A DNA stretch of 64,000 nucleotides. Origin: Clavaria fumosa. Taxonomy: Eukaryota > Basidiomycota > Agaricomycetes > Agaricales > Clavariaceae. The translations under genes were made by a program, and so were the position numbers. The DNA is taken from contig OX637797.1 in the NCBI GenBank assembly GCA_951802425.1, forward strand, positions 930,001 to 994,000, in the 5' to 3' direction. Below are positions 4,146 to 24,642 of this stretch, piece after piece. Positions within the stretch are counted from its first letter, which is position 1; every line of letters begins with the position of its first letter. A model generated the notes under the pieces. It ran no database searches. It had not been told where the DNA came from and saw only the letters and a list, made by a program, of their open reading frames with translations.

Positions 4146-4285
4146 GGAACCATTGTCTTGACCCCTTATCACATCTTGTACACTTGATTACTTTGTACAC
4201 TTGATTGTTCTTGAATCAAGAACTTTAACTTGTATAAGTAGGTTCGTTTTGCATTTTCAAGACGGAGTTCTTGACCAAAAAAGTT

Positions 4286-4324: not shown

Positions 4325-4357
4325 CTGGGTCAAGACATTTTGAGGTTTCCTGATGCT

Positions 4358-4395
4358 GTCGTGCATTGTGATTGTGCTCCTGCCCATCTGTGTTG
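4358..4395 (+). repeat. Left member of a 38-bp inverted repeat pair (partner 24320-24357)
   Basis: The reverse complement of this segment occurs without mismatch at 24320-24357, about 20 kb away. Once the three LTR elements and the inversion are removed, the two copies flank the broken gene at a distance of roughly 2.8 kb. No matching target-site duplication was found outside the pair, so a terminal inverted repeat is only one reading. Confidence 0.7.
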
Positions 4396-4453
4396 TAATC
4401 GTAACAGATGTTAAATCATATGAAACTATATGCAATTTTGTCATGACACTATG

Positions 4454-4586
4454 CATCAGCAAAACAGATTGGACAGGGGCTAGGTATGTACTGGTATATA
4501 CTTCTCTATACTACCTATAGGTGTTATAAACCACTTATAATAAAACCAGTACATACCTAGCCCCTGTCCAATCTGTTTTGCTGATG
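4454..4586. repeat. Hairpin element with perfect 42-bp arms
   Basis: Arms at 4454-4495 and 4545-4586 are perfect reverse complements separated by 49 bp of AT-rich sequence. The outer ends are CATCAGCAAAAC / GTTTTGCTGATG. It sits 25 bp beyond the stop codon of the acidic-tail gene fragment. It may be a very short MITE-like or foldback element, or a 3'-end hairpin. No target-site duplication is evident. Confidence 0.75.
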
Positions 4587-4611
4587 TGGAGATTATATTT
4601 TATGAAGATAT

Positions 4612-4989
4612 TCAAAAGGTTTCCTCCTCCTCCTCCTCCTCATCGTCATCATCATCAAACTCTTCATCATCTACCAGTAAGTATTTCTCCAAAATAGATT
4701 GTGCATACTTGTCCATAAACTGGTGGTCAGTGAGCTCCTCATCTTGATGGGATGTGAATGAAAGAGACACATCAGGTATAAGGGCCAGTTTCCCAGTTGT
4801 GATGCACTTGCAGAGTCGAGGCTGCAATTGGTTAAAGTATCCAGGATTGAAATAGTCAATGGGCATCCCCAGTGGAAGTGCAGGGAACTCTGTTGCCTTC
4901 TGGACCTCGGGGACTACTCGCACACGCTCACGCCATTTTCTCTTTGGGTCCAAATGAGCTTCCTCCTCCCTTTTCTTGTCGAGGAGTCG
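4612..4989 (-). pseudogene. C-terminal fragment of a split gene, with acidic tail
   Basis: This minus-strand coding piece begins exactly at the target site of E1 and ends with a TGA at 4614-4612. It encodes RLLDKKREEEAHLDPKRKW..., then a region with MPIDYFNPGYFNQLQP, and finishes in a run of Asp and Glu. Reading upstream, the frame enters the E1 LTR, so this is not a real start. Its codon phase continues without a gap from the plus-strand fragment that ends at 18260: EVWI joins RLLDKK. The TSD copy at 4990-4994 is not counted as coding. The protein family is not identified. The fragment is now stranded by insertion and inversion. Confidence 0.8.
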
Positions 4990-4994
4990 GATCC

Positions 4995-5299
4995 TGTCAG
5001 GATCGCTTACATAAGCAGGTTGGAAAGGCCAAGAAAGGATCGCAAAAGAGTTGCGGGAAGTTTGCGGACGAGTCACGTGACCCGAATGGGTGGTGGATTA
5101 CATAATGGGAAAATCACGTGACCCGGGCCTGGACGCATCACGTGACGCACGGGGTCCGAGCGTGGGAACGCCGGCAACTCCCGAACTGTTCGCTATATAT
5201 ACCACGTCGTTTTCTTACTTGTACCCTTTTCCCCTTATGTTAGTATCGTCATCATCGACCTTACATTAAGTTGTGTGAACCGTGAGACTAAGTCTGACA
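4995..5299 (+). repeat. 5' LTR of E1
   Basis: 305 bp with a TATA-like TATATATA at 5194-5201 and a predicted transcription start near 5237, where ATGTTAGTAT begins. Several CACGTGA motifs lie upstream of the TATA box. The R-U5 part is short, about 63 bp. Confidence 0.9.
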
Positions 5300-5952
5300 C
5301 AATACTAACATCAACCCCTGTCCGCCCTAGCCCCGTGTCCTAACCCGGCTAGCCTGGACCCCTATCTCAAACTGTCACACTCTGTGACAGCTTATCCCCC
5401 TCATCCTCTTTCTCTTTACCCTGCCCACGGTGTGCAACAGAACCATGTGAAATTTTTACTGTGTGTAGATACACGTGACCAGACCCGGAGGAAGTCTACT
5501 GTGACCCTCCCCAAGAGACACCGAGTGCCAAAGGCCCGGAACTTTGCTTTACAGCTACGTACCAGTGAATCGTGTAGTGTACAGGGCACGGAAAGGCCCT
5601 ATACATAGTTTTTCTGTAGTTTCCTGGTCCAGTGGACAGGGCCCTTGCTCTGTGACCATTGTCAGAAGGGCACACAGGCAACTCACTAGGAGTTGTGGAG
5701 TGACCACCTGGGACACCATTCGGGCCCCACGCTAGCAACAAGTTTTATAGAATAAGAGTTCTATAAGTACCTAGATACATAGAGAGCAGCCTGAGAGGAC
5801 AGGACTGCTAAGAGATCGAAGAAATCCTGAGTGCCCAAGGCCCGGAATTCTATTTACAGCGTCTGCGTCCGAGACCGGGTCGAGCCCAGCTCCCCCCCGA
5901 TTCCCCCGTTACTGATGTCCCTGAAACCCCATCACCACCACCGGGGTCTGTG
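5300..5952 (+). other. E1 5' leader with duplicated acceptor-like motif
   Basis: The untranslated leader contains an imperfect direct repeat at 5523-5554 and 5829-5859. Each copy reads GAGTGCC(A/C)AAGGCCCGGA and ends in a pyrimidine-rich TTTACAG, which resembles a 3' splice site. E2 has equivalent copies at 17348-17379 and 17045-17076. E3 lacks the stretch corresponding to about 5434-5560. Confidence 0.5.
5301..5311 (+). promoter_or_regulatory. Predicted self-priming primer-binding site of E1
   Basis: AATACTAACAT begins one base after the LTR. Ten of its eleven bases are complementary to 5237-5247 of the LTR, the likely first bases of the transcript. This is the arrangement known from Tf1-type self-primed elements. 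The single mismatch is at the primer 3' end. Confidence 0.6.
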
Positions 5953-6953
5953 ATGGCTGACCACGTCGCCCCGCCTGAAGTCCATGCCACGAGGCTGGAT
6001 TTAGTCGTCACCCCATTCGATGGGCAAAAAAGAAATTTCTGTACATTCCTCCAGTCGCTCCGCCTCCTGTTTATGGCGAATCCGATAATCTATGCCACGG
6101 ACCTGGCAAAGGTCCTCTACACCCTCAGCAAAATTACTGGTGAGGGGTTTGCCGCAGAATGGGCAAATGTGAAGGGAGAGGAAATCCTGGGTAACAACGA
6201 GGTTGGAACCTGGGCAGAATTTGTGGAAGAGATGAAGCGAGCGTTCGATGACCCGAACGACTGTGCAACTGCCCTCGCAGACATTGCGAGGTTGAAACAG
6301 GGTGTCATGACGGCACCTGAGTTCTTCACAAAGTTCGAAACGATGTTCTGAAGAGCGGGGATGACAGAAGTGGCCGATTTGGACATCCTGGTCCATTGGC
6401 TGGAGTCGAATCTGAGCAGGAGGCTAGTGGGAAAGGTCTATGGTGTTTTGCCAATGCCAGAGACCTACGTGCAGTGGAAGGCACTTGCCGAAAAGCTAGA
6501 TGCTCAGCAGCGTCGCCTCAATGGAGTCATCGCACAACAGAACTCTGTGCGTCCGGCTCTGCCTGCAACCAGCCGCCCCCTCCCTCAACAAACCCGCTTT
6601 GCCCCAGCCCCCCATCCCTTCCTGGCCCAGCCTCTGGCCCGCACCACTGCCCCTCCCACCATGCCGTGTCCCACCAATGCCGGTGATGCCATGGTGGTGG
6701 ATCGTGCCCGTGCCCCTGGAGTGTTGCGCACCTGCTTCCGATGTGGCCAAGCTGGTCACATGGTGAGAGATTGCCAGCTCCAGGACACATGTCCGCAGAT
6801 CCCGAGGCCGCAGGTCCGCGCCGTGGAAAGCCAGGTACGTAGTGCAGAGGACTATGAGAACAAGATCGCACTGCTCCGAGACTGTCTGGATTTGCTCGAG
6901 AGAGAGAAGAGGGCTCCTGTTGAGGAGCCGGATTTTGGAGACAAGGCCCAGTG
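5953..6953 (+). pseudogene. E1 gag with one in-frame TGA
   Basis: A Gag-like frame starts at ATG 5953 (MADHVAPPEVHATRLDL) and runs to TGA 6951-6953?the stop overlapping the pol frame?with one internal TGA at 6349-6351. E3 has CGA at that site. The capsid-like region is followed by a CX2CX4HX4C zinc knuckle (CFRCGQAGHMVRDC). Pol lies in a different frame, unlike E2 where gag and pol are fused. Nucleic-acid binding and particle assembly are the known roles of this family. Confidence 0.8.
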
Positions 6954-9900
6954 AGTCCGAACTGGAGTCTCAGGAGTAGATATCCCAGCCCCCCTCCCGT
7001 CCCTGTACCCGCAGCTAGTATCCCAAAATACACTATCTTGCAGCGGAGACACACCCGGATTGGGGCTGAGGTGAAGGACAAAGCGGAAATGGAAACCGCT
7101 AAAAGTGAAATACCGAAAAGAGAAAAGGGGACTAGCAGCCAAGTGGAGCCAACAAAGCACCTTGCAGAGGTGCTGAAGGACACCCTATTGCATATGCCCT
7201 GAGAGCTCTCCATCCAGGTGCACCTGGAGGCTCTCAGCACTGGCAAAGGGACAACTACGAAAGCCCTTGTCGACTCAGGCTGCACCAACTGCTTTATGGA
7301 CTTGGAGTGGGCGAAAAAAGTGGGATTGGAACCATCTCCCTTGCTGAATCCAATCACCATGTATAATGTGGATGGAACACAGAACAGAGATGGTAAGATC
7401 CGGTATGGGATGGAGCTGCTTGTGATGGTTGGCGACCACCAGGAGTGGATCCACTTCCTGCTAGGGAAGACCCAGTCCCACACGGCGATCCTTGGGCATG
7501 ATTGGCTAAAGCGTCATAATCCAGAGATTGACTGGGTGAAAGCTGAAGTAAGGCTCACCCGCTGCCCCAACACCTGTGCCTCCTCCCCACACAGCCACCG
7601 GTCCCCTGTTCAACCCTCAGTTCCACCAAAAGCGAGTACCCTGGCCTCGGCCAGTATCCCGGACACCCGTTTTCCCAACACTGGCCCTACCCCTGATTGG
7701 CCCAGCTGCTACCCTTTGGTTTTTAGTGAAGCAAAGTGGGATGAGCTCCCCTGCTCCCACCCTGACTTTAATATCAAAATCGAGTTTAAAACAGACCCTG
7801 GACACCTCTCCTCTAAGCTATACTCTCTGACGCGAGAAGAGATGGTGGAAATGAATCACTGGGTGGATGAGCAGCTAGCTTCTGGACGAATCCGACCTTC
7901 GAAGTCCCCGTACACGAGCCCCTTCTTCTTCAAACATGAGAAGGACAAGCTGTGGCCGATTATCGATTACTCTAGGCTGAACTCGTATCTAATCAAAGAC
8001 AAGTACCCCCTCCCCCTCATACGAGACACTGTGGATGTGTTAAAGGGGGCGACCATCTATTCCAAGATTGATGCGAAGGGAGGTTTCCCATCAATGCAGG
8101 TCTGGCCAGAACATCAGCACTGCTGTGCTTTCCTAATGCCTCGTGGACTCTTCGAACTGGCAGTTATGTGGTTTGGGCTGCAGAATGCGCCTGCAACCTT
8201 CCAGCGCTTCATGAACCATGTGTTGAGAGAAGAGATTGCAGGGGGGCATGTCCGAGCCTATGTCGATGATGTTATAGTGTTTGCAGAGGATTTGGCTACA
8301 CATCGGTATTGGATGGATCAGGTCTTGAAGAAGTTTGGGGAGAATGGCCTGTGTCTCAGACTCAGCAAGTGTGAGTTCGAGAAGAGTGAGGTTTTCTTCC
8401 TGGGGATGAAGATCTCCCACAACCATCTAGAGCATGACCCAGCTAAAGGCGCGGCGATCCGTAACTGGCCCAGACCGAAAAATGTGAAAGAGGTACAAAG
8501 ATTCAATGGGATGCTGAACTACCTCCGCCGGCACATCCTGAACCTCTCTGCCCGGGCAAAACCACTCTTCCGGCTGACAGGGAAAGTCCCGTGGAGATGG
8601 GAGGAGGAGGAGGAAGCAGCCTTCCAAGATCTCCGCCTGGCACTAGTATCAGCCCCAGTCTTGGCTCTACCACAAGACAAAGGGAGATGGAAGGTAGAAA
8701 CGGATGCGAGCAACTTGGCAACTGGAGGAGTTCTCTCACAGCAGCAGGTGGATGGGACTTGGAGAGTTGTAGACTACATCTCCAAAGCCCTCACTGCAGC
8801 TGAGAAGAATTACGATGTGTACGACAAGGAGTTCCTGGCTGTAATCCGGGCACTACGCGAGTGGCGGGCTTACCTGATTGGGGTGGAAGAGACTATTGAA
8901 ATCTGGACAGACCATGCTAACCTCCAGTACTTCCGGAAGCCCCAGAAGTTGAAACCGAGGCAGGTCCGTTGGGTTGGAGAGCTCCAGTGCTTTGACTTCG
9001 AGATCAAGTACCGTACTGGGAAGTCAAACACGAAAGCTGATGCACTCTCATGGAGGCCAGATTATGGAGAGATGGTGGAGGAGGATGCACCAGTACAGGT
9101 CTTCCCAGAGGCTGAGACCCGCACATTGTTCACATCGGAGATGGAGACGCTACTCCAGAAAAACAGCATGGTATATGTGCAGAAGCCAGAGGAGCTTGAT
9201 GATAAGTGGATGAGAGATCAGATGGGACTCTGGCGGAAGGCAGAAATCACTTGGGTGCCCCCAGAAGCACATGAGGCAGTGCTCACCTTTGAGCATGACC
9301 TCCCCATCGCAGGGCACCCTGGTCCACGGAAACTGAGGGTGGCTCTGCTGAGGTCCTACTGGTGGGTGGGCATGGTGAAGGATTCCAATCAGTATGCAGG
9401 TGGATGCGAGACATGCCAACGAATCAAGCCTGATCGTACCAGGCGCGCTGCTCCACTCCATCTGCACCCTGTCCCTGAGAGCCCCTGGGCAGTCATCTCT
9501 TGGGACATTGTTGGGCCTTTCCCCCTCTCACGTGGTCACAATGCGATCCTTGTCATTGTCGACAAGTTTACAAAATGAACTCTCATCGAAGCTATTGGCC
9601 TTGACCTCACGGGACTTGGTGCTGCTCGGATCCTTCGAGACTGGGTCTTCTGCAACCATGGAGTCCCACAGAAAGTTGTGAGTGACCGGGGAACCCAATT
9701 TGTGTCCAGATTCATGAGGGAGTTCTATGGGATGATTGGAGTTAAGGTGAACCCGAGCACTGCCTTCCACCCACAAACAGATGGACAGACAGAGCGGGTC
9801 AATCAGGAGGTTGAAGTGTATCTCCAGGCCTATGTTGACCATCTGCAGGATGATTGGGCAGAGTGGCTATCCACAGCTGAATTTGTGCTCAATAACCGTG

Positions 9901-10574
9901 AGCACTCAGCCACTGGATTCACACCTTTCTATCTGGAGTATGGCCGGCACCCTTGGAATGGTGGTATCTGGCCACCTTCTGAAGTGAACCCTGCAGCAGA
10001 CGAGTGAATGGCCAAGCTCACGGAATCCTGAAGAGCAGCCAGGAATGCAATGGGGAAGGCGGCAGATGCGATGAAGGCTAGTTATGATAAAGGAAAGCGC
10101 CTGAGTCGTGAATACTCAAAGGGGGACTTAGTCTGGCTGGATACCCAGAACCTGAAAATGGATTGACCATCCAAGAAGCTTGACAACAAGCGGGCTGGAC
10201 CCTTCACTATCGAAGAGAAGGTTGGACCAGCAGCATACCGACTCAAGCTCCCCCAAGCATGGCGCATTCACTGGGTTTTCAATGAGTTGCTACTCACCCT
10301 GTATATTGCTCCCTCTTTCCCTTCCCAGAACTTGCCTCCACCCCCACCCCCCACGATTGACGATGACCACTTGGAGTATGAGGTGGAGGTAATTCTTGAT
10401 GTCAAGAAGGTTGGACGGGGAGTGAAGTATTTGGTGAAGTGGTTAGGATACCCTGCAGAGGAGAACACCTGGGAACCTCGTTGCAACCTCACTAATGTTG
10501 CACTGTTGCTCCGGGACTTCTTCCAGCAATACCCTGACAAGGCGAAGTTGGCAGGTCAAGACGCCCAGCCTTAA
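6951..10574 (+). pseudogene. E1 pol (protease-RT-RNase H-integrase-chromodomain), stop-damaged
   Basis: One frame is continuous for 3.6 kb with no indels but is interrupted by TGA at 7200, 9576, 10005, 10029 and 10164. Comparison with E2 shows CGA at four of these sites and TGG at 10005. Visible motifs are protease ALVDSGCTNCFMD, reverse transcriptase YVDD, RNase H ETDAS, the integrase HHCC finger and catalytic WDIVGP and SDRGTQF, and a chromodomain (YLVKWLGYPAEENTWEP). The element cannot make a full-length enzyme now. Some stops are shared with E3. Confidence 0.9.
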
Positions 10575-10585
10575 GAGGGGGGTGA
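10571..10585 (+). promoter_or_regulatory. E1 polypurine tract
   Basis: The run TTAAGAGGGGGGTGA directly abuts the 3' LTR. It is the expected plus-strand primer site, and it overlaps the end of pol. Confidence 0.75.
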
Positions 10586-10890
10586 TGTCAGGATCGCTTA
10601 CATAAGCAGGTTGGAAAGGCCAAGAAAGGATCGCAAAAGAGTTGAGGGAAGTTTGTGGACGAGTCACGTGACCCGAAAGGGTGGTGGATTACATAATGGG
10701 AAAATCACGTGACCCGGGCCTGGACGCATCACGTGACGCACGGGGTCCGAGCGTGGGAATGCTGGCAACTCCCGAACCGTTCGCTATATATACCACGTCG
10801 TTTTCTTACTTGTACCCTTTTCCCCTTATGTTAGTATCGTCATCATTGACCTTATGTTAAGTTGTGTGAACCATGAGACTAAGTCTGACA
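10586..10890 (+). repeat. 3' LTR of E1
   Basis: 305 bp, ending CTGACA, followed by CTACC. It differs from the 5' LTR at about ten positions, mostly C/T or G/A. Confidence 0.9.
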
Positions 10891-11235
10891 CTACCCCCTT
10901 CCTGATGTACCATTACCCTGTCCTGTCTTTCAATTTGCTAATCATATGCTGCTCCAGCTTTTATTTCCTCATGCACACTCCTTCCTGGGCCATATCTGCA
11001 CCCCGTTGAGGACCCTTACTGCCTTACTTCTTCGCCCTCACCAACAACTCCAACACGCATCACTTGTGCTCTTGATGTGCACTCACAAGTGGGGAGAAGT
11101 TCACGCACCAGCTGCGTTTCATTCTTCATGCGCTGTCTTCGCCAAACATAAATTTAGTACCATAGAAGCGTGACCAAACATAACAGACTGTTTTCTGCTT
11201 TTTTTTCCATCCACAAATCAAGTCCTTCTCCAGCG
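10891..11235 (+). promoter_or_regulatory. Upstream region of the split gene
   Basis: Pyrimidine-rich, non-coding 345 bp precede the first ATG of the split gene. In the inferred ancestral order this region was continuous with the reverse complement of DNA right of 24018, because CTACC at 10891-10895 pairs with GGTAG at 24018-24022. A CT-rich tract at about 11200-11230 lies just before the start codon, as is common for fungal transcription starts. Confidence 0.45.
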
Positions 11236-12323
11236 ATGAATGTCGAGAACCAACCGCAACCCTCTCAGCATGATGGCACTGCCCAGCCGATGGATCCCAG
11301 AATAATGGCCATGTTTGAGAATATGATGCAGTCAAAACTGAGCGAGATGCAACAGGTGTATCACCACAAACTTCAAACTTGTGACGAAGCCTGGCAGAAG
11401 CACGAGAAAGAGGTGCAGGCCCGTGAATCAGCACTGCAGGGACAGCTCGAGAGCTTAACGCATGAGCTTGAAATGGCTAGGATCCAGTTAAGGTGTGTTT
11501 CTGGTCTCGGTCCTTGAACTATGCCCCATCTAATGGAACATCAGAAATGTGAACATCAACGATGCACCCATGGAAGAAGACACTCACCTTCCAGCACAAA
11601 ACCTAAGCAGCGGCCCAACACTGCAGCGCCAACATCCATGCGCTGTCCCAACACGAAACCGCCGCCCGCCCAAGCGTCAGGCTGCCAGCGGACCAGCTGA
11701 CAGCCTTCCTTCGGGCCAGACAAGAAAAAAACATAGAAACACATCTGCGAAGAGAGCCAAGGTGGTTATGAAACCGTCATCTCATATCCATAGGTTGTTA
11801 GAATCTGAGATCCCCTCTGATATTGGAGGGCTGCAGGTGCGTGATCTCATTAGTTTGATTGTTGCTCAGAGGTGCTCATTAAGACATTGTAGAGAGCTAT
11901 ACATCTCCACATACGGCTACTATGGGGACTACTCGACCCAAAGCAAGTTCCAGGAAACCCTCCCAATGAAGTCCTCGCGCAGTTTGCAAGCCACTTCACC
12001 ACTGAAGAGTCTATTCTCACAACACAGCAGGGACCATTGCTCATTGCACCATCCCTTGTGAAGGTGGGCAGGGCTGCTGCGAGCACAAATAGCGGGCAGA
12101 TTGCCACTCAGATTCGGCAGGTTGAGGAACACATTATCGACTACATCCAGAATTGTCTTGCCCGTTTTGGCTTGATATGCCAGTGCCCGGATCTTCGGCA
12201 GACACCCTATGCGCTGTACAATGCGGTGTGCCATGTAATTGCGCTCGATACCTTCAAACAAGCGCTCGTCTCACATGCCTTTGCACACATGAGCCCAAAC
12301 ACAATCTATGCGAAGGATCTCAA
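11236..12323 (+). pseudogene. N-terminal and middle fragment of the split gene, broken by E2
   Basis: Three exons can be read: 11236-11492, 11545-11836 and 11893-12323, with introns of 52 and 56 bp (GT...AG, phases consistent). The product begins MNVENQPQPSQHDG. It has a coiled-coil-like helix over about residues 20-85, a basic stretch (RRPPKRQ...RKKHRNTSAKRAK) and a helical domain containing RAIHLHIRLLWGLLDPKQVP. The third exon stops at the E2 target site after AKDLN and resumes in frame at 17899 with LLTRFYDHF. The family is not identified. By impression it resembles a multicopy family of basidiomycete repeat-associated proteins. Confidence 0.75.
12319..12323. repeat. Target-site duplication CTCAA of E2 (left copy)
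   Basis: CTCAA here is repeated at 17894-17898, directly beyond the other LTR. Confidence 0.9.
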
Positions 12324-12614
12324 TATCAGACTGGGTCTCACACAACTTAAGCGTAAGGTCATGACGACAATACTAAGATAAGGGGAAAAGAGTACAAAAA
12401 AGGAAAAGCGAAAGTACTTATAGCGAACGCTTCGGCACTTGCCGACTTTCCCACGCTCGGACCCTCGGATCACGTGATGCGCCCAGGCCCCAGGTCATGT
12501 GATCTTACATGATTACATAATCCGACCCAGCCACAGGTCATGTGACCTTCCAACAACCCTCCCCAGTTTCTCCACAACTGCACTTTGGGATGGCTTACAT
12601 AAGCGATCCTAACA
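12324..12614 (-). repeat. 3' LTR of E2
   Basis: 291 bp, identical by eye to 17603-17893. Confidence 0.95.
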
Positions 12615-12630
12615 TCACCCCCCTCTTAAG
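12615..12630 (-). promoter_or_regulatory. E2 polypurine tract
   Basis: On the minus strand CTTAAGAGGGGGGTGA abuts the 3' LTR and overlaps the stop codon of gag-pol. Confidence 0.75.
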
Positions 12631-15600
12631 GCTGGGCGTCCCGACCAGCTAGCTTGGCCTTGTCGGGGTGAGCAAGGAAGAAGTCCTGGAGAAGCAGTGC
12701 CACATTGGTGAGGTTCCGTCGTGGCTCCCAAGTGTTCTCCTCTACAGGGTATCCCAACCACTTCACCAGGTATCTCACTCCACGCCCCACCTTCTTAACA
12801 TCAAGGATCGCCTCCACATCATACTCCAGGTGGTCATCATCAATCGTAGGGGGCGGAGGGGGAGGCAGGTTCTGAGAAGGGAAGGAAGGGGGGTGGTATG
12901 GTGTCAACAGCAACTCATTGAAGACCCGATGGATGCGCCAGGCCCGAGGGAGCTTGAGGCGATACCCAGCAGGTCCCACCTTCTCCTCAACTGCAAAGGG
13001 GCCTGCTCTCTTGTTGTCAAGCTTTTTACAGGGCCGGTCCATCTTCAAGTTTCTAGTATCCAGCCAGACCAGATCTCCCTCAGAGTACTCCCGACTTGGG
13101 CGTTTCCCCTTATCATAGCTCTTCTTCATTGCTGCCACTGCTTTTTCCATTGCCTCCTTGGCTGCTCTTCGGGACTCCGTGAGCTTAGCCATCCACTCGT
13201 CCGCTGCCGGGTTCACCTCAGAAGGTGGCCGGAGCCCCCCATTCCATGGGTGTCGTCCATAATCGAGGAAGAAAGGTGTCTGTCCTGTTGCTGAGTGCTC
13301 ACGATTATTAAGAGCAAACTCCGCAGTGGACAACCATTCAGCCCAGTCATCCTGGAGATGGTCCACGTAAGCCCGGAGATAGATCTCCATCTCCTGGTTC
13401 GCCCGTTCCGTCTGTCCATCAGTCTGTGGATGAAAGGCAGTACTTGGATTTGCTTTTACCCGGATCATGGAGTAGAACTCCTTCATGAAGCGGGACACGA
13501 ACTGGGACCCCCGGTCACTCACAACCTTGTGAGGGACTCCATGGTCACGAAACACTCGATCCCGGAGGAGACGCGCCGCTCCAAGTCCTGTGAGGTCGAG
13601 CCCAATTGCTTCGAGCAGTGTCCGTTTCGTGAATTTGTCGACAATAACAAGGATGGCATTATGTCCACGGGAGAGGGGGAGGGGACCGACTATGTCCCAT
13701 GAGATCACCGACCAGGGACCATCGGGCACCAGATGGGGGTGCAGTGGGGCAGCACGCTTGGTACGGTCGGGCTTCGTCCGCTGGCATGTCTCACACCCCT
13801 GGGCATACCGATCCGCGTCTTTTACCATGTCCGGCCACCAATAACCCTTCACTAGTGCTGCTCTCAACTTCCGGGGCCCAGGGTGTCCAGCAGCGGGGAG
13901 GTCATGCTCAAACTCGAGAACGGCCTCACGAGCTCCTAGGGGGACCCAAGTGACTATCCCCTTTCGCCAGAGTCCAGCACGATCTCGTGTCCACTCATCA
14001 TCAAGCTCCTCTGGCTTCTGTATGTGTACCGCGCTATTTTTCTGGAGTAGCGTCTCCATTTCCGATGTGAATGACACACGGACTTCCGTTTCCGGGAAAA
14101 CCTGCACTGGTGCATCCTCCTCCACCATCTCTCCATAGTCCGGTCTCCGGGAGAGTGCATCTGCCTTTGTATTCGACTTGCCAGTGCGATACTTTATCTC
14201 AAAGTCAAAGCACTGGAGCTCTCCAACCCAACGAACCTGCCTCGGCTTCAACTTCTGGGGCTTCCGGAAGTACTGGAGGTTTGCATGGTCCGTCCAGATC
14301 TCGATCGTCTCCTCTGCTCCAATGAGGTATGCTCGCCACTCGCGAAGTGCCCGAATCACAGCCAAGAACTCCTTGTCGTACACATCGTAGTTCTTCTCAG
14401 CTGCAGTGAGGGCCTTGGAGATATAGTCAACAACTCTCCAGGTTCCATCCGCCTGCTGCTGCGAGAGCACTCCACCAGTTGCCAAGTTGCTTGCATCTGT
14501 CTCTACCTTCCATCTCCCTTTGTCCTGAGGCAGAGCCAAGACTGGGGCCGATACAAGTGCCTGGCGGAGATCTCGGAAGGCTGCTTCCTCCTCCTCCTCC
14601 CATTTCCACGGAACATTCCCAGTCAGCCGGAAGAGTGGCTTTGCCCGGGCAGAAAGATTCGGGATGTGCCGGCGGAGGTAGTTCAGCATCCCATTGAACC
14701 TCTGGACATCCTTCACATTCTTAGGACGTGGCCAATCTCGGACTGCCGCACCCTTGGCCGGATCATGCTCTAGTCTGTTGTGGGAGATCTTCATCCCCAG
14801 GAAGATGATCTCACTCTTCTCAAACTCGCATTTACTGAGTTTGAGACACAACCCATTCTCTCCAAACTTCCTCAAGACCCGATCCATCCAGTACCGGTGT
14901 GTAGCCAAGTCCTCTGCAAACACAATGACATCATCCACATAGGCCCTCACATGTCCTCCTGCAATCTCCTCCCTCAACACATGATTCATGAAGCGTTGGA
15001 AGGTGGCAGGGGCATTCTGCAGTCCAAACCACATGACAGCTGGTTCGAAGAGTCCACGGGGTGTCAGGAAGGTGCAGCGGTGCTGGTGCTCAGGCCAGAC
15101 CTGCATAGATGGGAAACCTCCTTTTGCATCAATCTTAGAGTAGATCGACGCTCCTTTAAGCACATCCACTGTGTCTCGGATGCGGGGAAGGGGGTACTTG
15201 TCCTTGATCAGGTGTGCATTCAGCCTCGAGTAGTCGATGATTGGCCGCAGTTTGTCCTTCTCATGTTTGAAGAAGAAGGGGCTGGCATACGGGGATTTCG
15301 AGGGCCGGATTCGTCCAGAAGCAAGCTGCTCATCCACCCAACGGTTCATCTCCACCATCTCCTGCCGTGTCAAAGAATACAGCTTGGAGGAGAGGTGCTC
15401 AGGGTCCTTTTTGAATTCGATCTTAATATCGAAGTCTGGTCGGGAGCGGGGAAGTTCATCCCACTTCGCTTCACTAAACACCAAAGGGTAGCGGCTGGGC
15501 CAATCGGGGGTAGGGCCAGAGTTGGGAAAACGGGTGTCCAGAATACTCGTGGATGCGAGGGTACTCGTTTTCAGGGGTGCAGGGGCTCGAGGGGATGGGG

Positions 15601-17035
15601 AACACTGTGGGGGGCAGCGGGTAAGGCTCAGCTCTGCCTTCTGCCAGTCAATATCCGGGTTGTGCCGCTTGAGCCAGTCATGCCCAAGGATGACCTTGTG
15701 GGACTGGGTCTTTCCCAGCAGAAAGTGGATCCGCTCCTGGTGGTCACCAACTCTCACCAGCACCTCTATCCCATACCGGACCTTTCCATTCCTGTTCTGT
15801 GTCCCATCCACATTATACATGGTGATTGGGTTCAGCAGGAGAGATGGCTCCAGTCCCACTCCTTTCGCCCACTCCAAATCCATGAAGCAGTTGGTGCACC
15901 CTGAGTCGACAAGGGCCTTCATTGTAGTCCCTTTGCCAGTGCTGAAAGCCTCCAAGTGCACCTGGATGGCTAGCTCTCGTGGCACATGTTTCCGCACTTC
16001 TGGCCGCACTCTGGTTAGGCGCTCTGCCAGTCTCACTTCCTCCTTCACCTCAGCCCCAATTCGGGTATGTCTCCGCTGCAAGATAGTATATCGGGGTATA
16101 CTTGCAGCAGGCACAGGGACGGAAAGGGGGCTGGCACACTTCTTCTCCCCAGTGGGAGTCCTCCTCTCTCTCTCACACAGCTCTATACAGGCTCGGAGCC
16201 ATGCAATCTCTTTCTCATATCCCTCCACCATTTGGGGGGCACATGGTGCTGCCCGGGTTTGGGCCCTTGGGACCTGCGGACGCGTATCAGGCAGGGGGCA
16301 GAAACGGACAGCATGGCCAGTCTGGTGGCATCGGAAACAACATCTCTCATCAGCAGGGGCCCATCCTCGGGCCATGGCCACATCTGGAGTACACAGCAGA
16401 GGGGTCACAGGAGGTCGCGAAACGGTCACGGCAGGTCGCGGTAGGGTTGTGGTGGGTCGCGCGGGGGTCACAGTGGGTCGCCGTGTCCATTCCGTGAGTA
16501 TCCCATCCAGTCGCCTTTGCTGGGCATCAAGCCTCTCAGCCAGCACCTTCCATTCTCCATATGTCTCTGGCATTGGGGAGACACCATAGATTCTCTCCAC
16601 CAACCTCCTACTCAGGTTCAACTCCAGCCAATGGACTAGGATTCCTGAGTCCTTCTCTGCACTCAACTTCGCCCGTTGGAACAGCATCTCGAATTTCGCG
16701 AAGAACTCTGGTGCTGTCATGGCACCCTGTTTCAGCCCTGCAATATCGGCAAGGGCAGTCGCACGGTCATTCGGGTCATCGAATGCGCGCTTCATCTCCT
16801 CCACAAACTCTGCCCAGGTTCCGGCCTCGCCACTACCCAGGATCTCTTCTGCCTTCATATTCGCCCATTCTGCAGCGAATCCATCTCCAACAATTTTGCT
16901 CAGAGCAAAGAGGACCTTCACCAGGTCCACAGCATAGGTAGTCGGGTTCGCCATAAACAGGAGGCGAAGGGATCGGAGGAACGTACGGAAGTTCCTTTTC
17001 TGCCCATCAAAGGGGGCAACGGCTAGGTCCAGCAT
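12626..17035 (-). CDS. E2 Gag-Pol polyprotein with C-terminal chromodomain
   Basis: First in-frame ATG at 17035 gives 1469 residues; the frame stays open upstream to 17074. Numbered from 17074, the zinc knuckle C246-C249-H254-C259 ends Gag and the aspartic protease motif DSG is at 390-392. Reverse transcriptase YVDD is at 712-715 and RNase H Asp859 lies in ETDAS. The integrase has an HHCC finger (His1064, Cys1094, Cys1097) and a DD35E triad D1127-D1187-E1223. A GPY/F-like module and a chromodomain at about 1416-1465 (YLVKWLGYPVEENTWEP) follow. This makes it a chromovirus of the Tf1/sushi type. Gag and Pol are one frame, so protein ratios must be set by proteolysis or degradation rather than frameshifting. 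No inactivating change is seen. Confidence 0.95.
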   Translation of the reverse strand: MLDLAVAPFDGQKRNFRTFLRSLRLLFMANPTTYAVDLVKVLFALSKIVGDGFAAEWANMKAEEILGSGEAGTWAEFVEEMKRAFDDPNDRATALADIAGLKQGAMTAPEFFAKFEMLFQRAKLSAEKDSGILVHWLELNLSRRLVERIYGVSPMPETYGEWKVLAERLDAQQRRLDGILTEWTRRPTVTPARPTTTLPRPAVTVSRPPVTPLLCTPDVAMARGWAPADERCCFRCHQTGHAVRFCPLPDTRPQVPRAQTRAAPCAPQMVEGYEKEIAWLRACIELCERERRTPTGEKKCASPLSVPVPAASIPRYTILQRRHTRIGAEVKEEVRLAERLTRVRPEVRKHVPRELAIQVHLEAFSTGKGTTMKALVDSGCTNCFMDLEWAKGVGLEPSLLLNPITMYNVDGTQNRNGKVRYGIEVLVRVGDHQERIHFLLGKTQSHKVILGHDWLKRHNPDIDWQKAELSLTRCPPQCSPSPRAPAPLKTSTLASTSILDTRFPNSGPTPDWPSRYPLVFSEAKWDELPRSRPDFDIKIEFKKDPEHLSSKLYSLTRQEMVEMNRWVDEQLASGRIRPSKSPYASPFFFKHEKDKLRPIIDYSRLNAHLIKDKYPLPRIRDTVDVLKGASIYSKIDAKGGFPSMQVWPEHQHRCTFLTPRGLFEPAVMWFGLQNAPATFQRFMNHVLREEIAGGHVRAYVDDVIVFAEDLATHRYWMDRVLRKFGENGLCLKLSKCEFEKSEIIFLGMKISHNRLEHDPAKGAAVRDWPRPKNVKDVQRFNGMLNYLRRHIPNLSARAKPLFRLTGNVPWKWEEEEEAAFRDLRQALVSAPVLALPQDKGRWKVETDASNLATGGVLSQQQADGTWRVVDYISKALTAAEKNYDVYDKEFLAVIRALREWRAYLIGAEETIEIWTDHANLQYFRKPQKLKPRQVRWVGELQCFDFEIKYRTGKSNTKADALSRRPDYGEMVEEDAPVQVFPETEVRVSFTSEMETLLQKNSAVHIQKPEELDDEWTRDRAGLWRKGIVTWVPLGAREAVLEFEHDLPAAGHPGPRKLRAALVKGYWWPDMVKDADRYAQGCETCQRTKPDRTKRAAPLHPHLVPDGPWSVISWDIVGPLPLSRGHNAILVIVDKFTKRTLLEAIGLDLTGLGAARLLRDRVFRDHGVPHKVVSDRGSQFVSRFMKEFYSMIRVKANPSTAFHPQTDGQTERANQEMEIYLRAYVDHLQDDWAEWLSTAEFALNNREHSATGQTPFFLDYGRHPWNGGLRPPSEVNPAADEWMAKLTESRRAAKEAMEKAVAAMKKSYDKGKRPSREYSEGDLVWLDTRNLKMDRPCKKLDNKRAGPFAVEEKVGPAGYRLKLPRAWRIHRVFNELLLTPYHPPSFPSQNLPPPPPPTIDDDHLEYDVEAILDVKKVGRGVRYLVKWLGYPVEENTWEPRRNLTNVALLLQDFFLAHPDKAKLAGRDAQP

Positions 17036-17590
17036 TCTATAGCACTGTAAAATAAAATTCCGGGCCTTCGGCACTCAGGATTTCTTCGATCTCTTAACAG
17101 TCCTGTCCTCTCAGGCTGCTCTTCTAGGTACTTATGTACCTATAGAACTCTTATTCTATGAATCTTTTGTTAACGTGGGGCACGAATGGTATCCCAGGTG
17201 GTCACTCCACAACTCCTAATGAGTTGCCCGTGTGCCCTTCTGACAATGGTCACAGAGCAAGGGCTCTGTCCACTGGACCAGGAAACTACAGAAGACTATG
17301 TAGGGGCTTTCCTTGCCCTGTACACTAAGCGATTCACTGGTACGTAGCTGTAAAATAGAGATCCGGGCCTTTGGCACTCGGTATCACTTGGGGAGGGTCA
17401 CAGTTGACTTCCTCTGGGTCTGGTCACGTGTATGTACACACAGTAAAAATTTCACGCAGTTCTGTTACACACTGCGGGCAGGGTAAAGAAGAAGAGGATG
17501 ATAGGGGCTGAGCTGTGACAACGTGTCACAGTTTGAGATTAAGGGTCCAGGCTAGCCAGGTTAGGACACGGGGCTAGGGCGGACAGGCGG

Positions 17591-17601
17591 ATCTTAGTAT
17601 T
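17591..17601 (-). promoter_or_regulatory. Self-priming primer-binding site of E2
   Basis: On the minus strand AATACTAAGAT lies one base inside the 5' LTR. It is complementary at all eleven positions to 17658-17648 of the LTR, the likely 5' end of the transcript. A TATA-like TATAAGT lies about 40 bp upstream of that point. Confidence 0.7.
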
Positions 17602-17602
17602 A

Positions 17603-17893
17603 TATCAGACTGGGTCTCACACAACTTAAGCGTAAGGTCATGACGACAATACTAAGATAAGGGGAAAAGAGTACAAAAAAGGAAAAGCGAAAGTACTTAT
17701 AGCGAACGCTTCGGCACTTGCCGACTTTCCCACGCTCGGACCCTCGGATCACGTGATGCGCCCAGGCCCCAGGTCATGTGATCTTACATGATTACATAAT
17801 CCGACCCAGCCACAGGTCATGTGACCTTCCAACAACCCTCCCCAGTTTCTCCACAACTGCACTTTGGGATGGCTTACATAAGCGATCCTAACA
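17603..17893 (-). repeat. 5' LTR of E2
   Basis: 291 bp containing the predicted promoter and transcription start at about 17658 on the minus strand. Confidence 0.95.
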
Positions 17894-17898
17894 CTCAA

Positions 17899-18260
17899 CC
17901 TTTTGACTCGGTTCTATGATCATTTTGTGCATCATTACATGTACAAACGGTATCAAAAAGAAGAATGAGAGCCGGGAAGAGTCAAGATTGTTGAAGAGAT
18001 GCAGCCTCAGTATCAAGGCCGTATTAGAGTAATTTATTTTTCCTCCAGAGTTGTTCTTTACTAATAACCTTTGTCAGCTTGCCTCTGCCCGCCTTGAATT
18101 TCTTAGGGCAAATGGATATCCTAAGCGGTACCAGGATCTCATAGATCCCAAGGCCACTTCAGATGATGAGCCTAGTTCAACAGAGCCACAAGTGAGAAGC
18201 TCCAAGGAATATCATATCAGGAAGCGGCCTGAGCGCTCTCCCGAATTTGAGGTGTGGATC
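17899..18260 (+). pseudogene. Middle fragment of the split gene, between E2 and E3
   Basis: Coding continues at 17899-18028 (LLTRFYDHFVHHYMYKRYQKEE, a TGA at 17966-17968, then EPGRVKIVEEMQPQYQGRIR). A 49-bp intron (18029-18077) follows, then 18078-18260 (LASARLEFLRANGYPKRYQD... to EVWI). The exon ends at the E3 target site GGATC. Counting through all pieces and using each duplicated target site once, the ancestral frame is 557 codons with the TGA at codon 350. GAA GAA TGA GAG CCG would read EEREP if TGA derives from CGA. The last part of the gene is now at 4989-4612 on the other strand. Confidence 0.75.
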
Positions 18261-18565
18261 TGTCAGACTTAGTCTCACGGTTCACACAACTTAACGTAAG
18301 GTCGATGATGATGATACTAACATAAGGGGAAAAGGGTACAAGTAAGAAAACGATGTGGTATATATAGCGAACGGTTCGGGAGTTGCCAGCATTCCCACGC
18401 TCGGACCCCGTGCGTCACGTGATGCGTCCAGGCCCGGGTCACGTGATTTTCCCATTATGTAATCCACCACCCTTTTGGGTCACGTGACTCGTCCGCAAAC
18501 TTCCCGCAACTCTTTTGCGATCCTTTCTTGGCCTTTCCAACCTGCTTATGTAAGCGATCCTGACA
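18261..18565 (-). repeat. 3' LTR of E3
   Basis: 305 bp; the adjoining PPT on the minus strand (18580-18566) is AAGAGAGGGGTGA-like. Flanked on the outside by GGATC. Confidence 0.9.
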
Positions 18566-18589
18566 TCACCCCTCTCTTAAGGCTGGGCG

Positions 18590-21500
18590 TCTCGACCTGC
18601 CAACTTCGCCTTGTCAGGGTATTGCTGGAAGAAGTCCCAGAGCAACAGTGCAACATTAGTGAGGTTGCAACGAGGTTCCCAGGTGTTCTCCTCTGCAGGG
18701 TATCCTAACCACTTCACCAAATACTTCACTCCCCATCCAACCTTCTTGACATCAAGAATTTCCTCCACCTCATACTCCAAGTGGTCGTTGTCAATTGTGG
18801 GGGGTGGGGGTGGAGGCAAGTTCTGGGAAGGGAAAGAGGGAGCAATATACGGGGTGAGTAGCAACTCATTGAAAACCCAGTGAATGCGCCATGCTCGGGG
18901 GAGCTTGAGTCGGTATGCTGCTGGTCCAACCTTCTCTTCGATAGTGAAGGGTCCAGCCCGCTTGTTGTCAAGCTTCTTGGATGGTCAATCCATTTTCAGG
19001 TTCTGGGTATCCAGCCAGACTAAGTCCCCCTTTGAGTATTCACGACTCGGGTGCTTTCCTTTATCATAGCTAGCCTTCATCGCATCTGCCACCTTCCCCA
19101 TTGCATCCCTGGCTGCTCTTCGGGATTCCGTGAGCTTGGCCATCCACTTGTCTGCTGCAGGGTTCACTTCAGAAGGTGGCCGGATACCACCATTCCAAGG
19201 GTGCCGGCCATACTCCAGATAGAAAGGTGTGAATCCAGTGGCTGAGTGCTCACAGTTATTGAGCACAAATTCAGCTGTGGATAGCCACTCTGCCCAATCA
19301 TCCTGCAGATGGTCAACATAGGCCCGGAGATACACTTCAACCTCCTGATTGACCTGCTCTGTCTGTCCATCTGTTTGTGGGTGGAAGGCAGTGCTCAGGT
19401 TCGCCTTAACTCCAATCATCCCATAGAACTCCCTCATAAATCTGGACACAAATTGGGTTCCCCGGTCACTCACAACTTTCTGCAGGACTCCATGGTCGCA
19501 GAAGACCCAGTCTCGAAGGATCCGAGCAGCACCAAGTCCCGTGAGGTCAAGGCCAATAGCTTCGATGAGAGTTCATTTTGTAAACTTGTCGACAATGACA
19601 AGGATCGCATTGTGACCACGTGAGAGGGGGAAAGGCCCAACAATGTCCCAAGAGATGACTGCCCAGGGGCTCTCAGGGACAGGGTGTGGATGGAGCAGAG
19701 CAGCGCACCTGGTACGATCAGGCTTGATTCGTTGGCATGTCTCGCATCCACCTGCGTACCGATTGGAATCCTTCACCATGCCCACCCACCAGTAGGACCT
19801 CAGCAGAGCCGCCCTCAGTTTCCGTGGACCAGGGTGCCCTGCGATGGGGAGGTCATGCTCAAAGGTGAGCACTGCCTCACGTGCTTCTGGGGGCACCCAA
19901 GTGATTCCTGCCTTCCGCCAGAGTCCCATCCGATCTCTCGTCCACTTATCATCAAGCTCCTCCAGCTTCTGCACATATACCATGCTGTTTTTCTGGAGTA
20001 GCGTCTCCATCTCCGATGTGAACAATGTGCGGGTCTCAGCCTCTGGGAAGACCTGTACTGGTGCATCCTCCTCCACCATCTCTCCATAATCTGGCCTCAA
20101 TGAGAGTGCATCAGCTTTCGTGTTTGACTTCCCAGTACGGTACTTGATCTCGAAGTCAAAGCACTGGAGCTCTCCAACCCAACGGACCTGCCTCGGTTTC
20201 AACTTCTGGGGCTTCCGGAAGTACTGGAGGTTAGCATGGTCTGTCCAGATTTCAATAGTCTCTTCCACCCCAATCAGGTAAGCCCGCCACTCGCATAGTG
20301 CCCGGATTACAGCCAGGAACTCCTTGTCGTACACATCGTAATTCTTCTCAGCTGCAGTGAGGGCTTTGGAGATGTAGTCTACAACTCTCCAAGTCCCATC
20401 CACCTGCTGCTGTGAGAGAACTCCTCCAGTTGCCAAGTTGCTCGCATCCGTTTCTACCTTCCATCTCCCTTTGTCTTGTGGTAGAGCCAAGACTGGGGCT
20501 GATACTAGTGCCAGGCGGAGATCTTGGAAGGCTGCTTCCTCCTCCTCCTCCCATCTCCATGGGACTTTCCCTGTCAGCCGGAAGAGTGGTTTTGCCCGGG
20601 CAGAGAGGTTCGGGATGTGCCGGCGGAGGTAGTTCAGCATCCTGTTGAATCTCTGTACCTCTTTCACATTTTTCGGTCTGGGCCAGTTACGGATCACCGC
20701 GCCTTTAGCTGGGTCATGCTCTAGACGGTTGTGGGAAATCTTCATCCCCAGGAAGAAAACCTCACTCTTCTCGAACTCGCACTTGCTGAGTCTGAGACAC
20801 AGGCCATTCTCCCCAAACTTCTTCATGACCCGATCCATCCAATACCGATGTGTAGCCAAATCCTCTGCAAACACTATAACATCATCGACATAGGCTCGGA
20901 CATGCCCCCCTGCAATCTCTTCTCTCAACACATGGTTCATGAAGTGCTGGAATGTTGCAGGCGCATTCTGCAGCCCAAACCACATAACTGCCGGTTCGAA
21001 GAGTCCACGAGGCATTAGGAAAGCACAGCAGTGCTGATGTTCTGGCCAGACTTGCATCGATGGGAAACCTCCTTTCGCATCAATCTTGGAATAGATGGTC
21101 GCCCCCTTTAACACATCCACAGTGTCTCATATGAGGGGGAGGGGGTACTTGTCTTTGATTAGATACAAGTTCAGCCTAGAGTAATCGATGATCGGCCGCA
21201 GCTTGTCCTTCTCACATTTGAAGAAGAAGGGGCTCGCGTACGGGGACTTCGAAGGTCGGATTCATCCAGAAGCTAGCTGCTCATCCACCCAGCGATTCAT
21301 TTCCACCATCTCTTCTCACGTCAGAGAGTATAGCTTAGAGGAGAGGTGTCCAGGGTCTGTTTTAAACTCGATTTTGATATCAAAGTCAGGGTGGGAGTGG
21401 GGGAGCTCATCCCACTTTGCTTCACTAAAAACCAAAGGGTAGCGGCTGGGCCAATCAGGGGTAGGGCCAGTGTTGGGAAAACGGGTGTCCGGGATACTGG

Positions 21501-21933
21501 CCGAGGCCAGGGTACTCGCTTTTGGTGGAACTGAGGGTTGAACAGGAGACCGGTGGCTGTGTGGGGAGGAGGCACAGGTGTTGGGGCAGTGGGTGAGCCT
21601 TACTTCAGCTTTCACCCAGTCAATCTCTGGATTATGACGCTTTAGCCAATCATGCCCAAGGATCGCCGTGTGGGACTGGGTCTTCCCTAGCAGGAAGTGG
21701 ATCCGCTCCTGGTGGTCACCAACTGTCACAAGCAGCTCCATCCCATACCGGATCTTACCATCTCTGTTCTGTGTTCCATCCACATTATACATGGTGATTG
21801 GATTCAGCAAGGGAGATGGTTCCAATCCCACTTTTTTCGCCCACTCCAAGTCCATAAAGCAGTTGGTGCAGCCTGAGTCGACAAGGGCTTTCGTAGTTGT
21901 CCCTTTGCCAGTGCTGAGAGCCTCCAGGTGCAC
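18590..21933 (-). pseudogene. E3 pol, stop-damaged
   Basis: The pol frame carries the same domains as E1: protease DSG, YVDD, ETDAS, integrase WDIVGP and SDRGTQF, and a chromodomain. It is interrupted by TGA codons. Several are private to E3 (in place of CGA in LIRDTV, SGRIRPS and LTREEM) and others are shared with E1 (FTK-stop before TLIE, and MD-stop). It cannot encode a functional polyprotein. Confidence 0.9.
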
Positions 21934-21948
21934 CTGGATGGAGAGCTC

Positions 21949-23195
21949 TCAGGGCATATGCAATAGGGTGTCCTTCAGCACCTCTGCAAGGTGCTTTGTT
22001 GGCTCCACTTGGCTGCTAGTCCCCTTTTCTCTTTTCGGTATTTCACTTTTAGCGGTTTCCATTTCTGCTTTGTCCTTCACCTCAGCCCCAATCCGGGTGT
22101 GTCTCTGCTGCAAGATAGTGTATTTTGGGATACTAGCTGCGGGTACAGGGATGGGAGGGGGGCTGGGATATCTACTCCTGAGACTCCAGTTTGGACTCAC
22201 TGGGCCTTGTCTCCAAAATCCAGCTCCTCAACAGGAGCCCTCTTCTCTCTCTCGAGCAAATCCAGGCGGTCTCGGAGCAGTGCGATCTTGTTCTCATAGT
22301 CCTCTGCACTACGTGCCTGGCTTTCCACGGCGCAGACCTGCGGCCTCGGGATCTGCGGATGTGTGTCCTGGAGCTGGCAATCTCTCACCATGTGACCAGC
22401 TTGGCCACATCAGAAGCAGGTGCGCAACACTCCAGGGGCACAGGCACGATCCACCACCATGGCATCACCGGCATTGGTGGGATGCGGCATGGTGGGAGGG
22501 GCAGGGGTGCGGGCCAGAGGCTGGGCCAGGAAGGGACAGGGGGCTGGGGCGAAGTGGGTTTGTTGAGGGAGGGGGCGGCTGGTTGCAGGCAGAGCAGGAC
22601 ACATGGAGTTCTGTTGTGCGATGACTCCATTGAGGCGACGCTGCTGAGCATCTAGCTTTTCAGCAAGTGCCTTCCACTGCACGTAGGTCTCTGGCATTGG
22701 CAAAACACCATAGACCTTTCCCACTAGCCTCCTGCTCAGATTCGACTCCAGCCAATGGACCAGGATGTCCAAATCGGCCACTTCTGTCATCCCTGCTCTT
22801 CGGAACATTGTTTCGAACTTTGCGAAGAACTCAGGTGCCGTCATGACACCCTGTTTCAACCTCGCAATGTCTGCGAGGGCAGTCGCACGGTTGTTCAGGT
22901 CATCGAATGCTCACTTCATCTCTTCCACAAATTCTGCCCAGGTTCCAACCTCGTTGTTACCCAGGATTTCCTCTCCCTTCACATTTGCCCATTCTGCGGC
23001 AAACCCCTTGCGAGTAATTTTGCTGAGGGTGTAGAGGACCTTTGCCAGGTCCGTGGCATAGATTATCGGATTCGCCATAAACAGGAGGTGGAGCGACTGG
23101 AGGAATGTACAGAAATTTCTTTTTTGCCCATCGAATGGGGCGACGACTAAATCCAGCCTCGTGGCATGGACTTCAGGCGGGGTGACATGGTCAGC
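21949..23195 (-). pseudogene. E3 gag and gag-pol junction, stop-damaged
   Basis: Gag starts MADHVTPPEVHATRLDL (about 23198) and includes the zinc-knuckle region, where CFRCGQ has become CF-stop-CGQ by a CGA-to-TGA change. A second TGA replaces the Arg codon after EEMK. The Gag stop overlaps the pol frame exactly as in E1. Confidence 0.8.
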
Positions 23196-23700
23196 CATCA
23201 CAGACCCCGGTGGTGGTGATGGGGTTTCGGGGACGTTGGTAACGGGGGAATTGGGGGGGAGCTGGGCTCAACCCGGTCTCGGACGCAGACGCTGTAAATA
23301 GAATTCCGGGCCTCGGGCACTCAGGATTTCTTCGATCTCTTAGCAGTCCTGTCCTCTCAGGCTGCTCTCTATGTATCTAGGTACTTATAGAACTCTTATT
23401 CTATAAAACTTGTTGCTAGTGTGGGGCCCGAATGGTGTCCCAGGTGGTCACTCCACAACTCCTAGTGAGTTGCCCGTGTGCCCTTCTGACAATGGTCACA
23501 GAGCAAGGGCCCTGTCCACTGGACCAGGAAACTACAGAAAAACTATGTATAGGGCCTTTCTGTGCCCTGTACACTACACGATTCACTGGTACATAAAGAG
23601 AAAGAGGATGAGGGGGATAAGCTGTCACAGAGTGTGACAGTTTGAGATAGGGGTCCAGGCTAGCCGGGTTAGGACACGGGGCTAGGGCGGACAGGGGTTG

Positions 23701-23711
23701 ATGTTAGTATT
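23701..23711 (-). promoter_or_regulatory. Predicted self-priming primer-binding site of E3
   Basis: Same 11-base segment as in E1, complementary at ten of eleven bases to 23765-23775 in the 5' LTR. Confidence 0.6.
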
Positions 23712-23712
23712 G

Positions 23713-24017
23713 TGTCAGACTTAGTCTCACGGTTCACACAACTTAATGTAAGGTCGATGATGACGATACTAACATAAGGGGAAAAGGGTACAAGTAAGAA
23801 AACGACGTGGTATATATAGCGAACGGTTCGGGAGTTGCCAGCGTTCCCACGCTCGGACCCTGTGCGTCACGTGATGCGTCCAGGCCCGGGTCACGTGTTT
23901 TTCCCATTATGTAATCCACCACCCATTCGGGTCACGTGACTCGTCCACAAACTTCCCGCAACTCTTTTGCGATCCTTTCTTGGCCTTTCCAACCTGCTTA
24001 TGTAAGCAATCCTGACA
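23713..24017 (-). repeat. 5' LTR of E3
   Basis: 305 bp; TATA-like TATATATA is present at about 23811-23818. Flanked on the outside by GGTAG. Confidence 0.9.
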
Positions 24018-24642
24018 GGTAGGAGGTGGGTACATCAGCTACGACGCAGAATACACCGCGTTCTGCAAGGGGGTACCAAGTGCATCAACTGGGTGTCGCA
24101 GTGTCACACAAGGGTTAACACATACTGAGATCAAGGTGTGTGGAGGTCCTCACCCTTTGCCTGAGGCCCCGAGACGACACAACAACAACGTTGATCTGTA
24201 ACACAATGCAAGTTCTTGATAAGCATGGGAAGGGGGTATGAGGCTGACTCACCTTCTTATAACACTTGAACAATGTCAAGGTGTCTCAGCAATGCAGAGG
24301 CTATGAGGGAGACAGCGAGCAACACAGATGGGCAGGAGCACAATCACAATGCACGACGGATTGCCACTGCAGAACAGTCACAAGTGTGACATTTGTGACG
24401 GGACAGACGATTATACGGGAGGGTTCGGTCACATGAGTGTGACAAGAAGACAATGTCTTGGCCAACGAAAGGCCTCATCAATCACGTGCAACCATGTTCA
24501 CTGCCCGCGATCCTTCACATCTCGATGCTCTCAGCACACCCGATGACATCACCCCCTCTGCACATACTTAAACTCCCCCTCTCCTTCCCCAGTCTCATCA
24601 CTCACCCCATCCCCCACACTTGCTCCCGCTTCGTTTCGCGCT
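24018..24642. other. Spacer, inferred former upstream region of the split gene
   Basis: No gene is visible. The reverse complement of this stretch would have led into 10891 before the inversion. It carries the right copy of the 38-bp inverted repeat at 24320-24357 and a cluster of GTGACA/TGTGAC motifs at about 24370-24440. Confidence 0.5.
24320..24357 (-). repeat. Right member of the 38-bp inverted repeat pair
   Basis: Exact reverse complement of 4358-4395. Confidence 0.7.

Follow-up and report, generated by a model that had tools for sequence, protein, structure and literature searches.

The closest described counterpart of the locus reported here is inversion 2z3 of Drosophila buzzatii, at which inverted, chimeric copies of the transposon Galileo carry exchanged target-site duplications, a configuration that the parts of that study considered here present as proof of ectopic recombination (PMC2775673). 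In Podospora anserina, 7 of the 150 full copies of the LTR retrotransposon crapaud have disparate 5′ and 3′ ends, which the excerpted account attributes to gene conversion or ectopic recombination (PMC10787394). In a 64,000-nucleotide stretch of the genome of the agaricomycete Clavaria fumosa (contig OX637797.1, positions 930,001–994,000; hereinafter the window), two related LTR retrotransposons, E1 and E3, resemble the Galileo copies of 2z3 in their opposite orientation, their exchanged duplications and the presence of one copy of each target in the uninverted state (PMC2775673). They are Ty3/gypsy elements with 5-bp duplications and a short intervening segment, whereas Galileo, a DNA transposon, makes duplications of 7 bp; the Galileo study, in the parts considered, compared inverted with non-inverted chromosomes, whereas the reference order for E1 and E3 comes from paralogous repeats; and the Galileo copies are chimeric, whereas the chimerism of E1 and E3 is weakly indicated (PMC2775673). 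Copies with mismatched ends are shared with crapaud, but neither reciprocal partners nor inversions are traced in the sections of that work considered here (PMC10787394). Ty1 of yeast likewise rearranges chromosomes through homologous recombination between dispersed LTR retrotransposons; its rearrangements, as far as the excerpts describe them, were induced by directed breaks, whereas the E1/E3 case is inferred from a natural genome (PMC9879454). A search of titles and abstract openings, with partial coverage of the literature, returned no description of reciprocal duplications at a fungal Ty3/gypsy inversion. The mechanism itself is already known from Galileo; what is new is a Ty3/gypsy case that has its reference order in the same genome and has likely recurred there.

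Two inverted Ty3/gypsy elements with exchanged target-site duplications

E1 (5,896 bp) and E3 (5,757 bp) lie in opposite orientation (forward and reverse, respectively) at the two ends of a segment, and the whole arrangement is located within a host repeat that has terminal inverted repeats (TIRs) and is present in multiple copies, L049, L051 and L052 among them. The features, in window coordinates, are as follows:

4356–4989, unstranded: left arm of the host TIR repeat, matching L049 1179–1276 and 1275–1685; the left TIR is truncated at 4356
4990–4994, forward: GATCC, probable half of the target-site duplication of an original insertion A, the other half being GGATC at 18256–18260; single copy in the empty-site paralogue L049
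4995–10890, forward: E1, Ty3/gypsy LTR retrotransposon by Pfam matches on its open pieces, chimeric under the inversion model; LTRs 4995–5299 and 10586–10890
10891–10895, forward: CTACC, probable displaced half of the duplication of an insertion B, the other half being GGTAG at 24018–24022; single copy in L051 and L052
10891–18260, unstranded: very probably inverted segment, covering a portion of the host repeat together with its gene; L049, L051 and L052 have it uninverted with respect to the flanks
12324–17893, reverse: E2, related Ty3/gypsy element nested in the segment, with a chromodomain and one long open frame (Pfam); absent in L049 and L052
18256–18260, forward: GGATC, probable displaced half of insertion A's duplication, read directly
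18261–24017, reverse: E3, second copy of the E1 family, with 139 bp missing near its 5′ end; LTRs 23713–24017 (5′) and 18261–18565 (3′)
24018–24022, forward: GGTAG, probable half of insertion B's duplication, read directly
24023–24419, unstranded: host repeat, right arm; in L051 and L052 it runs directly into the 10891 side
24420–29716, unstranded: distinct 5.3-kb insertion, bordered by ACGGG and ACAGG, within the host repeat's right TIR; absent in L049, L051 and L052
29717–29798, unstranded: outer portion of the host repeat's right TIR, matching the termini of L049, L051 and L052

Direct reading bore out the original prediction that E1 is flanked by GATCC on the left and CTACC on the right, and E3 by GGATC and GGTAG, with neither element having a target-site duplication of its own: every flanking 5-mer has its reverse complement at the other element. 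Inversion of 10891–18260 in silico gives both insertions a perfect 5-bp duplication, GATCC and GGTAG, again as predicted. By simple arithmetic, the chance of two exact reciprocal 5-mers is about 1 in 10^6. The two elements differ by 148 substitutions over 5,757 aligned positions (97.4% identical) and by one 139-bp gap. As a separate observation, 139 of these 148 differences between 4995–10890 and 18261–24017 are transitions, as expected from cytosine deamination or a RIP-like process.

The segment measures 7,370 bp at present and 1,795 bp after subtraction of E2 and one of the CTCAA copies that border it (12319–12323 and 17894–17898). The long frame of E2 has Pfam matches above the cut-off to the Ty3 capsid/gag, reverse transcriptase, RNase H, integrase H2C2, Tf2-1-like SH3 and chromodomain (chromo E=5.6e-14) and below it to an aspartyl protease and the integrase core (rve). 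The scan of E1, restricted to its gag, zinc-knuckle and protease-to-H2C2 pieces (E3 being represented by one piece), recovered the Ty3 capsid, zinc knuckle, reverse transcriptase, RNase H and H2C2, with the protease below cut-off. From this domain content, the elements classify as Ty3/gypsy of the chromovirus type, the chromodomain being assigned from the E2 frame. Matches to the E2 query that name an organism include Agaricomycetes, such as Armillaria and Mycena, as well as green algae and fish. Because the LTRs of E2 are identical (0 differences over 292 positions compared), its insertion is likely later than A and B.

These features suggest a simple series of events. The same copy of the TIR repeat would have received insertion A at GATCC and insertion B at GGTAG; a crossover somewhere within the paired, oppositely oriented elements would then have reversed the segment between them; and the outcome would be two chimeric elements, one consisting of A's 5′ part and B's 3′ part and the other of the reverse combination. 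The exchanged 5-mers, the opposite orientation, and the uninverted order with single target 5-mers in sister copies are direct observations; that homologous (ectopic) recombination between E1 and E3 inverted the 7,370 bp lying between them is, in our assessment, highly probable.

Uninverted order in paralogous copies of the host repeat

We joined the flanks in silico as they would have stood before insertion and inversion and searched the same genome with the joins: junction 1 connects 18260 to the reverse complement of 4989, and junction 2 the reverse complement of 10891 to 24023. Of the 22 genome matches to junction 1, 18 span it (two over the full query, at 98% and 93%; one over 150–360, at 99%; the other 15 at 68–71%); the four non-spanning ones comprise the two halves in the window itself, one match that stops short of the junction and another that starts beyond it. 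Two of the four matches to junction 2 span it (99% and 98%), and the remaining two are again the window's own halves. L052 (C2:526–529 kb) contains window 24419–24018, 10891–12323 and 17894–18145 unbroken in series; in L049, window 4587–4994 continues into 18260–17894 and then 12323–11552; and in both L051 and L052 the right flank adjoins 10891. Each of the three has a single copy of the target 5-mer at its junction, with none of E1, E2 and E3 at that place. The proposed search for the uninverted order elsewhere was thus answered within the same genome; these copies are paralogues rather than alleles, and what they document is the repeat's original order, rather than the arrangement of this locus in a different strain. 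Among the matches to these pre-insertion queries, which were uninverted joins and not joins of the present order, the present order was not seen outside the window. The restoration of a coding frame across the breakpoint, also part of the original prediction, is real: with 18260 rejoined to the reverse complement of 4989, the reading frame stays open as far as a stop at ~4612, and in the natural copy L049 a frame of 202 aa runs uninterrupted from stop to stop across this junction.

Two host copies on C2 were considered further. The copy at C2:527–552 kb was rejected as a broken junction: its ~23-kb split falls at query 150–156, off the junction, and its outer part still spans junction 1. In the copy at C2:663–675 kb the two junctions lie ~11 kb apart and the L049 and L051 matches overlap at window 11552–11556, which fits a further insertion at that point.

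As for the host repeat itself, its TIR reads CACGGCGCACAAATAG..., and AGT stands on either side of the C2:663–675 kb copy, an observation from this one copy that holds provided its two ends belong together. In CACTA elements, the candidate class for this repeat, the TIR begins with CAC and the duplication is 3 bp. In the search for a transposase, three frames of L049 gave no Pfam match at E up to 0.1; among related proteins, 17 of 17 bear PF26792 as their precomputed label. The left arm contains a 133-bp near-palindromic insertion (4454–4586), absent in L049, that resembles a small inverted-repeat transposon, and the truncated left TIR is adjoined by dense GGC/CAG-type repeats (2680–4180). The insertion at 24420–29716 carries open frames, of which the one at 27055–27870 lacks a Pfam match. 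Elsewhere in the window, a 658-aa frame at 5–1981 is without a match in Pfam and has 536 related proteins (E up to 0.001); its matches that name an organism are from Candolleomyces, Pholiota, Galerina and Phlegmacium, which belong to the Agaricales. The stretches 35689–42694 and 46405–53404 form a direct duplication ~10.7 kb apart, with listed parts 73–97% identical.

Prediction of further reciprocal pairs

The 48.8-Mb genome has 655 matches to the LTR start at up to one mismatch, a count that includes LTRs of close relatives such as E2. Of 40 regions fetched, 34 contain a two-LTR copy (left out were L012, L020, L023, L029, L033 and L044, along with an erroneous pairing that involved a stray LTR of L019). 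The LTR ends TGTCA...TGACA occur in these 34 copies. A perfect 5-bp duplication borders 28 of the 34 other two-LTR copies, so the mismatched flanks of the remaining six are unusual. If such flanks arise by exchange, a mismatched copy should have a partner bearing the same two 5-mers exchanged.

Two of the six led to candidate partners on C6. L034 (C6:609218–615113, reverse strand) is flanked by CTCAC and TGCCC; L033, in the opposite orientation at C6:628853 (forward), has GTGAG at its 5′ end, and a genome search for the LTR end followed by the predicted GGGCA gave a single exact match, at C6:643995–644013 on the predicted strand. The stretch before that LTR is element-internal, and L033 is interrupted after element position 4319; its two ends, between which the interior was read in part, would belong to one element. 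The intervening segment is 13,739 bp. L022 (C6:1512923–1518818, forward) is flanked by ACCCG and GAACT; the predicted GAACT before a 5′ LTR and ACCCG after a 3′ LTR each have one exact match in the genome, at C6:1533432–1533458 and C6:1522785–1522803, respectively, both on the reverse strand. These ends would likewise be those of a single element, hereinafter P, whose interior was read in part, and the segment between L022 and P is 3,971 bp. Given 655 LTR starts, one exact 5-mer match in the genome is not unusual (~0.6 expected); finding both flanks at one site, a few kb away and in opposite orientation, is. These two reciprocal inverted pairs thus appear, from their ends and flanks, to carry the same type of footprint, and the same process would account for them.

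No nearby exact-match partner was found for the mismatched copies L035, L043 and L045, the sole exact match for L035 being L041, on C13 and with its own duplication; mismatched flanks must therefore also arise in other ways, and deletions between direct copies could leave such orphans. L010 was rejected as a member of an inversion: it is followed by CAATA, the sequence that stands after a 5′ LTR, and looks like a tandem.

LTR phase and the search for a switch point

Since a new insertion has identical LTRs, the original LTR pairs would end up in different elements after a crossover. We counted sites at which two states split two against two among the four LTRs of a pair of elements, and scored whether they supported the pre-inversion or the present pairing. 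L022/P has 8 pre-inversion sites against 2 present ones (one further site groups 5′ with 5′), L034/L033 has 1 against 0, and E1/E3 likewise 1 against 0, with three further sites grouping 5′ with 5′ and 3′ with 3′. The control, 378 pairs drawn from the 28 copies that have a duplication of their own, averages 3.92 present against 0.17 pre-inversion sites per pair, and 2 pairs have more of the latter than of the former.

The supporting site of E1/E3, column 70, is weak evidence taken by itself, because it is a CpG, variable among the other copies (4 of 33). The three sites that group by LTR end need conversion or recurrent mutation; at one of them, column 92, both 3′ LTRs have an A that is found in 0 of the 33 other copies. 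Overall, the LTRs differ at 8 and 10 positions across the pairs restored by inversion, hardly fewer than the 10 and 10 within the present pairs, and the two 5′ and the two 3′ LTRs are more alike again, at 6 and 8. E1 and E3 exclusively share seven states, the second highest number among 595 pairs, and conversion between them would fit both these and column 92, with a shared subfamily history as a possible alternative. The pair with the most exclusive shared states of the 595, L030/L042, has 14, which suggests a subfamily or conversion; the seven sites of E1/E3 are therefore weak support, as subfamily history may also yield such sharing. E1 is the closest to E3 of 34 copies (next 2.91%); their distance, 2.57%, is exceeded in closeness by 371 of the 595 pairs. 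Comparison of the two halves of E1 and E3, which had been proposed as a way to locate the exchange, placed no switch point: nearest-copy identity in 500-bp windows revealed no consistent change of partner.

Spacing of inverted pairs

Among the 38 placed copies, between which unfetched copies may lie, three of the four inverted pairs less than 20 kb apart have exchanged duplications, as against none of four inverted pairs at 34–87 kb exchanged with each other. The former figure is biased upward, as E1/E3 was given beforehand and P was found by directed search; without P it is two of three. The neighboring inverted pair L042/L028, 4.6 kb apart, has kept its own duplications.

Alternative explanations

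An assembler that crossed between the elements at both copies would have flipped the segment on paper only, and this would produce an identical signature; its appearance at three of the four close inverted pairs could also be expected from such errors, though random orientation could yield it too. Against this, E1 and E3 are 2.6% divergent and their longest identical run is 370 bp, so reads of several kb can tell them apart; the 48.8 Mb are assembled in 17 contigs; and L042/L028 retains its duplications despite being inverted and so close. We hence regard an assembly artefact as unlikely.

The order of the segment could also have been changed in the cell without a crossover, had two breaks occurred inside the elements and the ends been rejoined after the segment turned. 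That the crossover point is not visible in E1/E3 would agree with such a repair, but the elements are in register over their full length bar the 139-bp deletion near the 5′ end of E3, which disfavors end joining at unrelated points and leaves this a very improbable course of events. Least credible, to the point of being negligible, is that the two are independent insertions which lost their own duplications and match reciprocally by coincidence. The three mismatched copies for which no partner was found do indicate that flanks can become mismatched in isolation; yet chance or decay would have to provide two exact reciprocal 5-mers, an uninverted order at both junctions in sister copies, and two more reciprocal pairs located by prediction. 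Homologous recombination between inverted copies, flipping about 7.4 kb as originally proposed, is supported by the paralogue order, the LTR phase and these two further pairs.

Implications

Taken from the assembled sequence, the three pairs suggest that closely spaced inverted copies of this family seem, in this genome, to invert the intervening DNA on repeated occasions. A far-reaching extension, that such copies act as flip-flop switches, with DNA within ~15 kb near orientation equilibrium, both orientations present among nuclei and short segments continuously reshuffled, is a speculation that we think doubtful. The chain of evidence used here for small LTR-retrotransposon inversions works from sequence alone, combining an internal reference order with a predictive test, and it led to two more likely cases. 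This suggests that mismatched target-site duplications could serve for a genome-wide count of ectopic exchanges, and that the spacing of inverted copies may set the rate of inversion.
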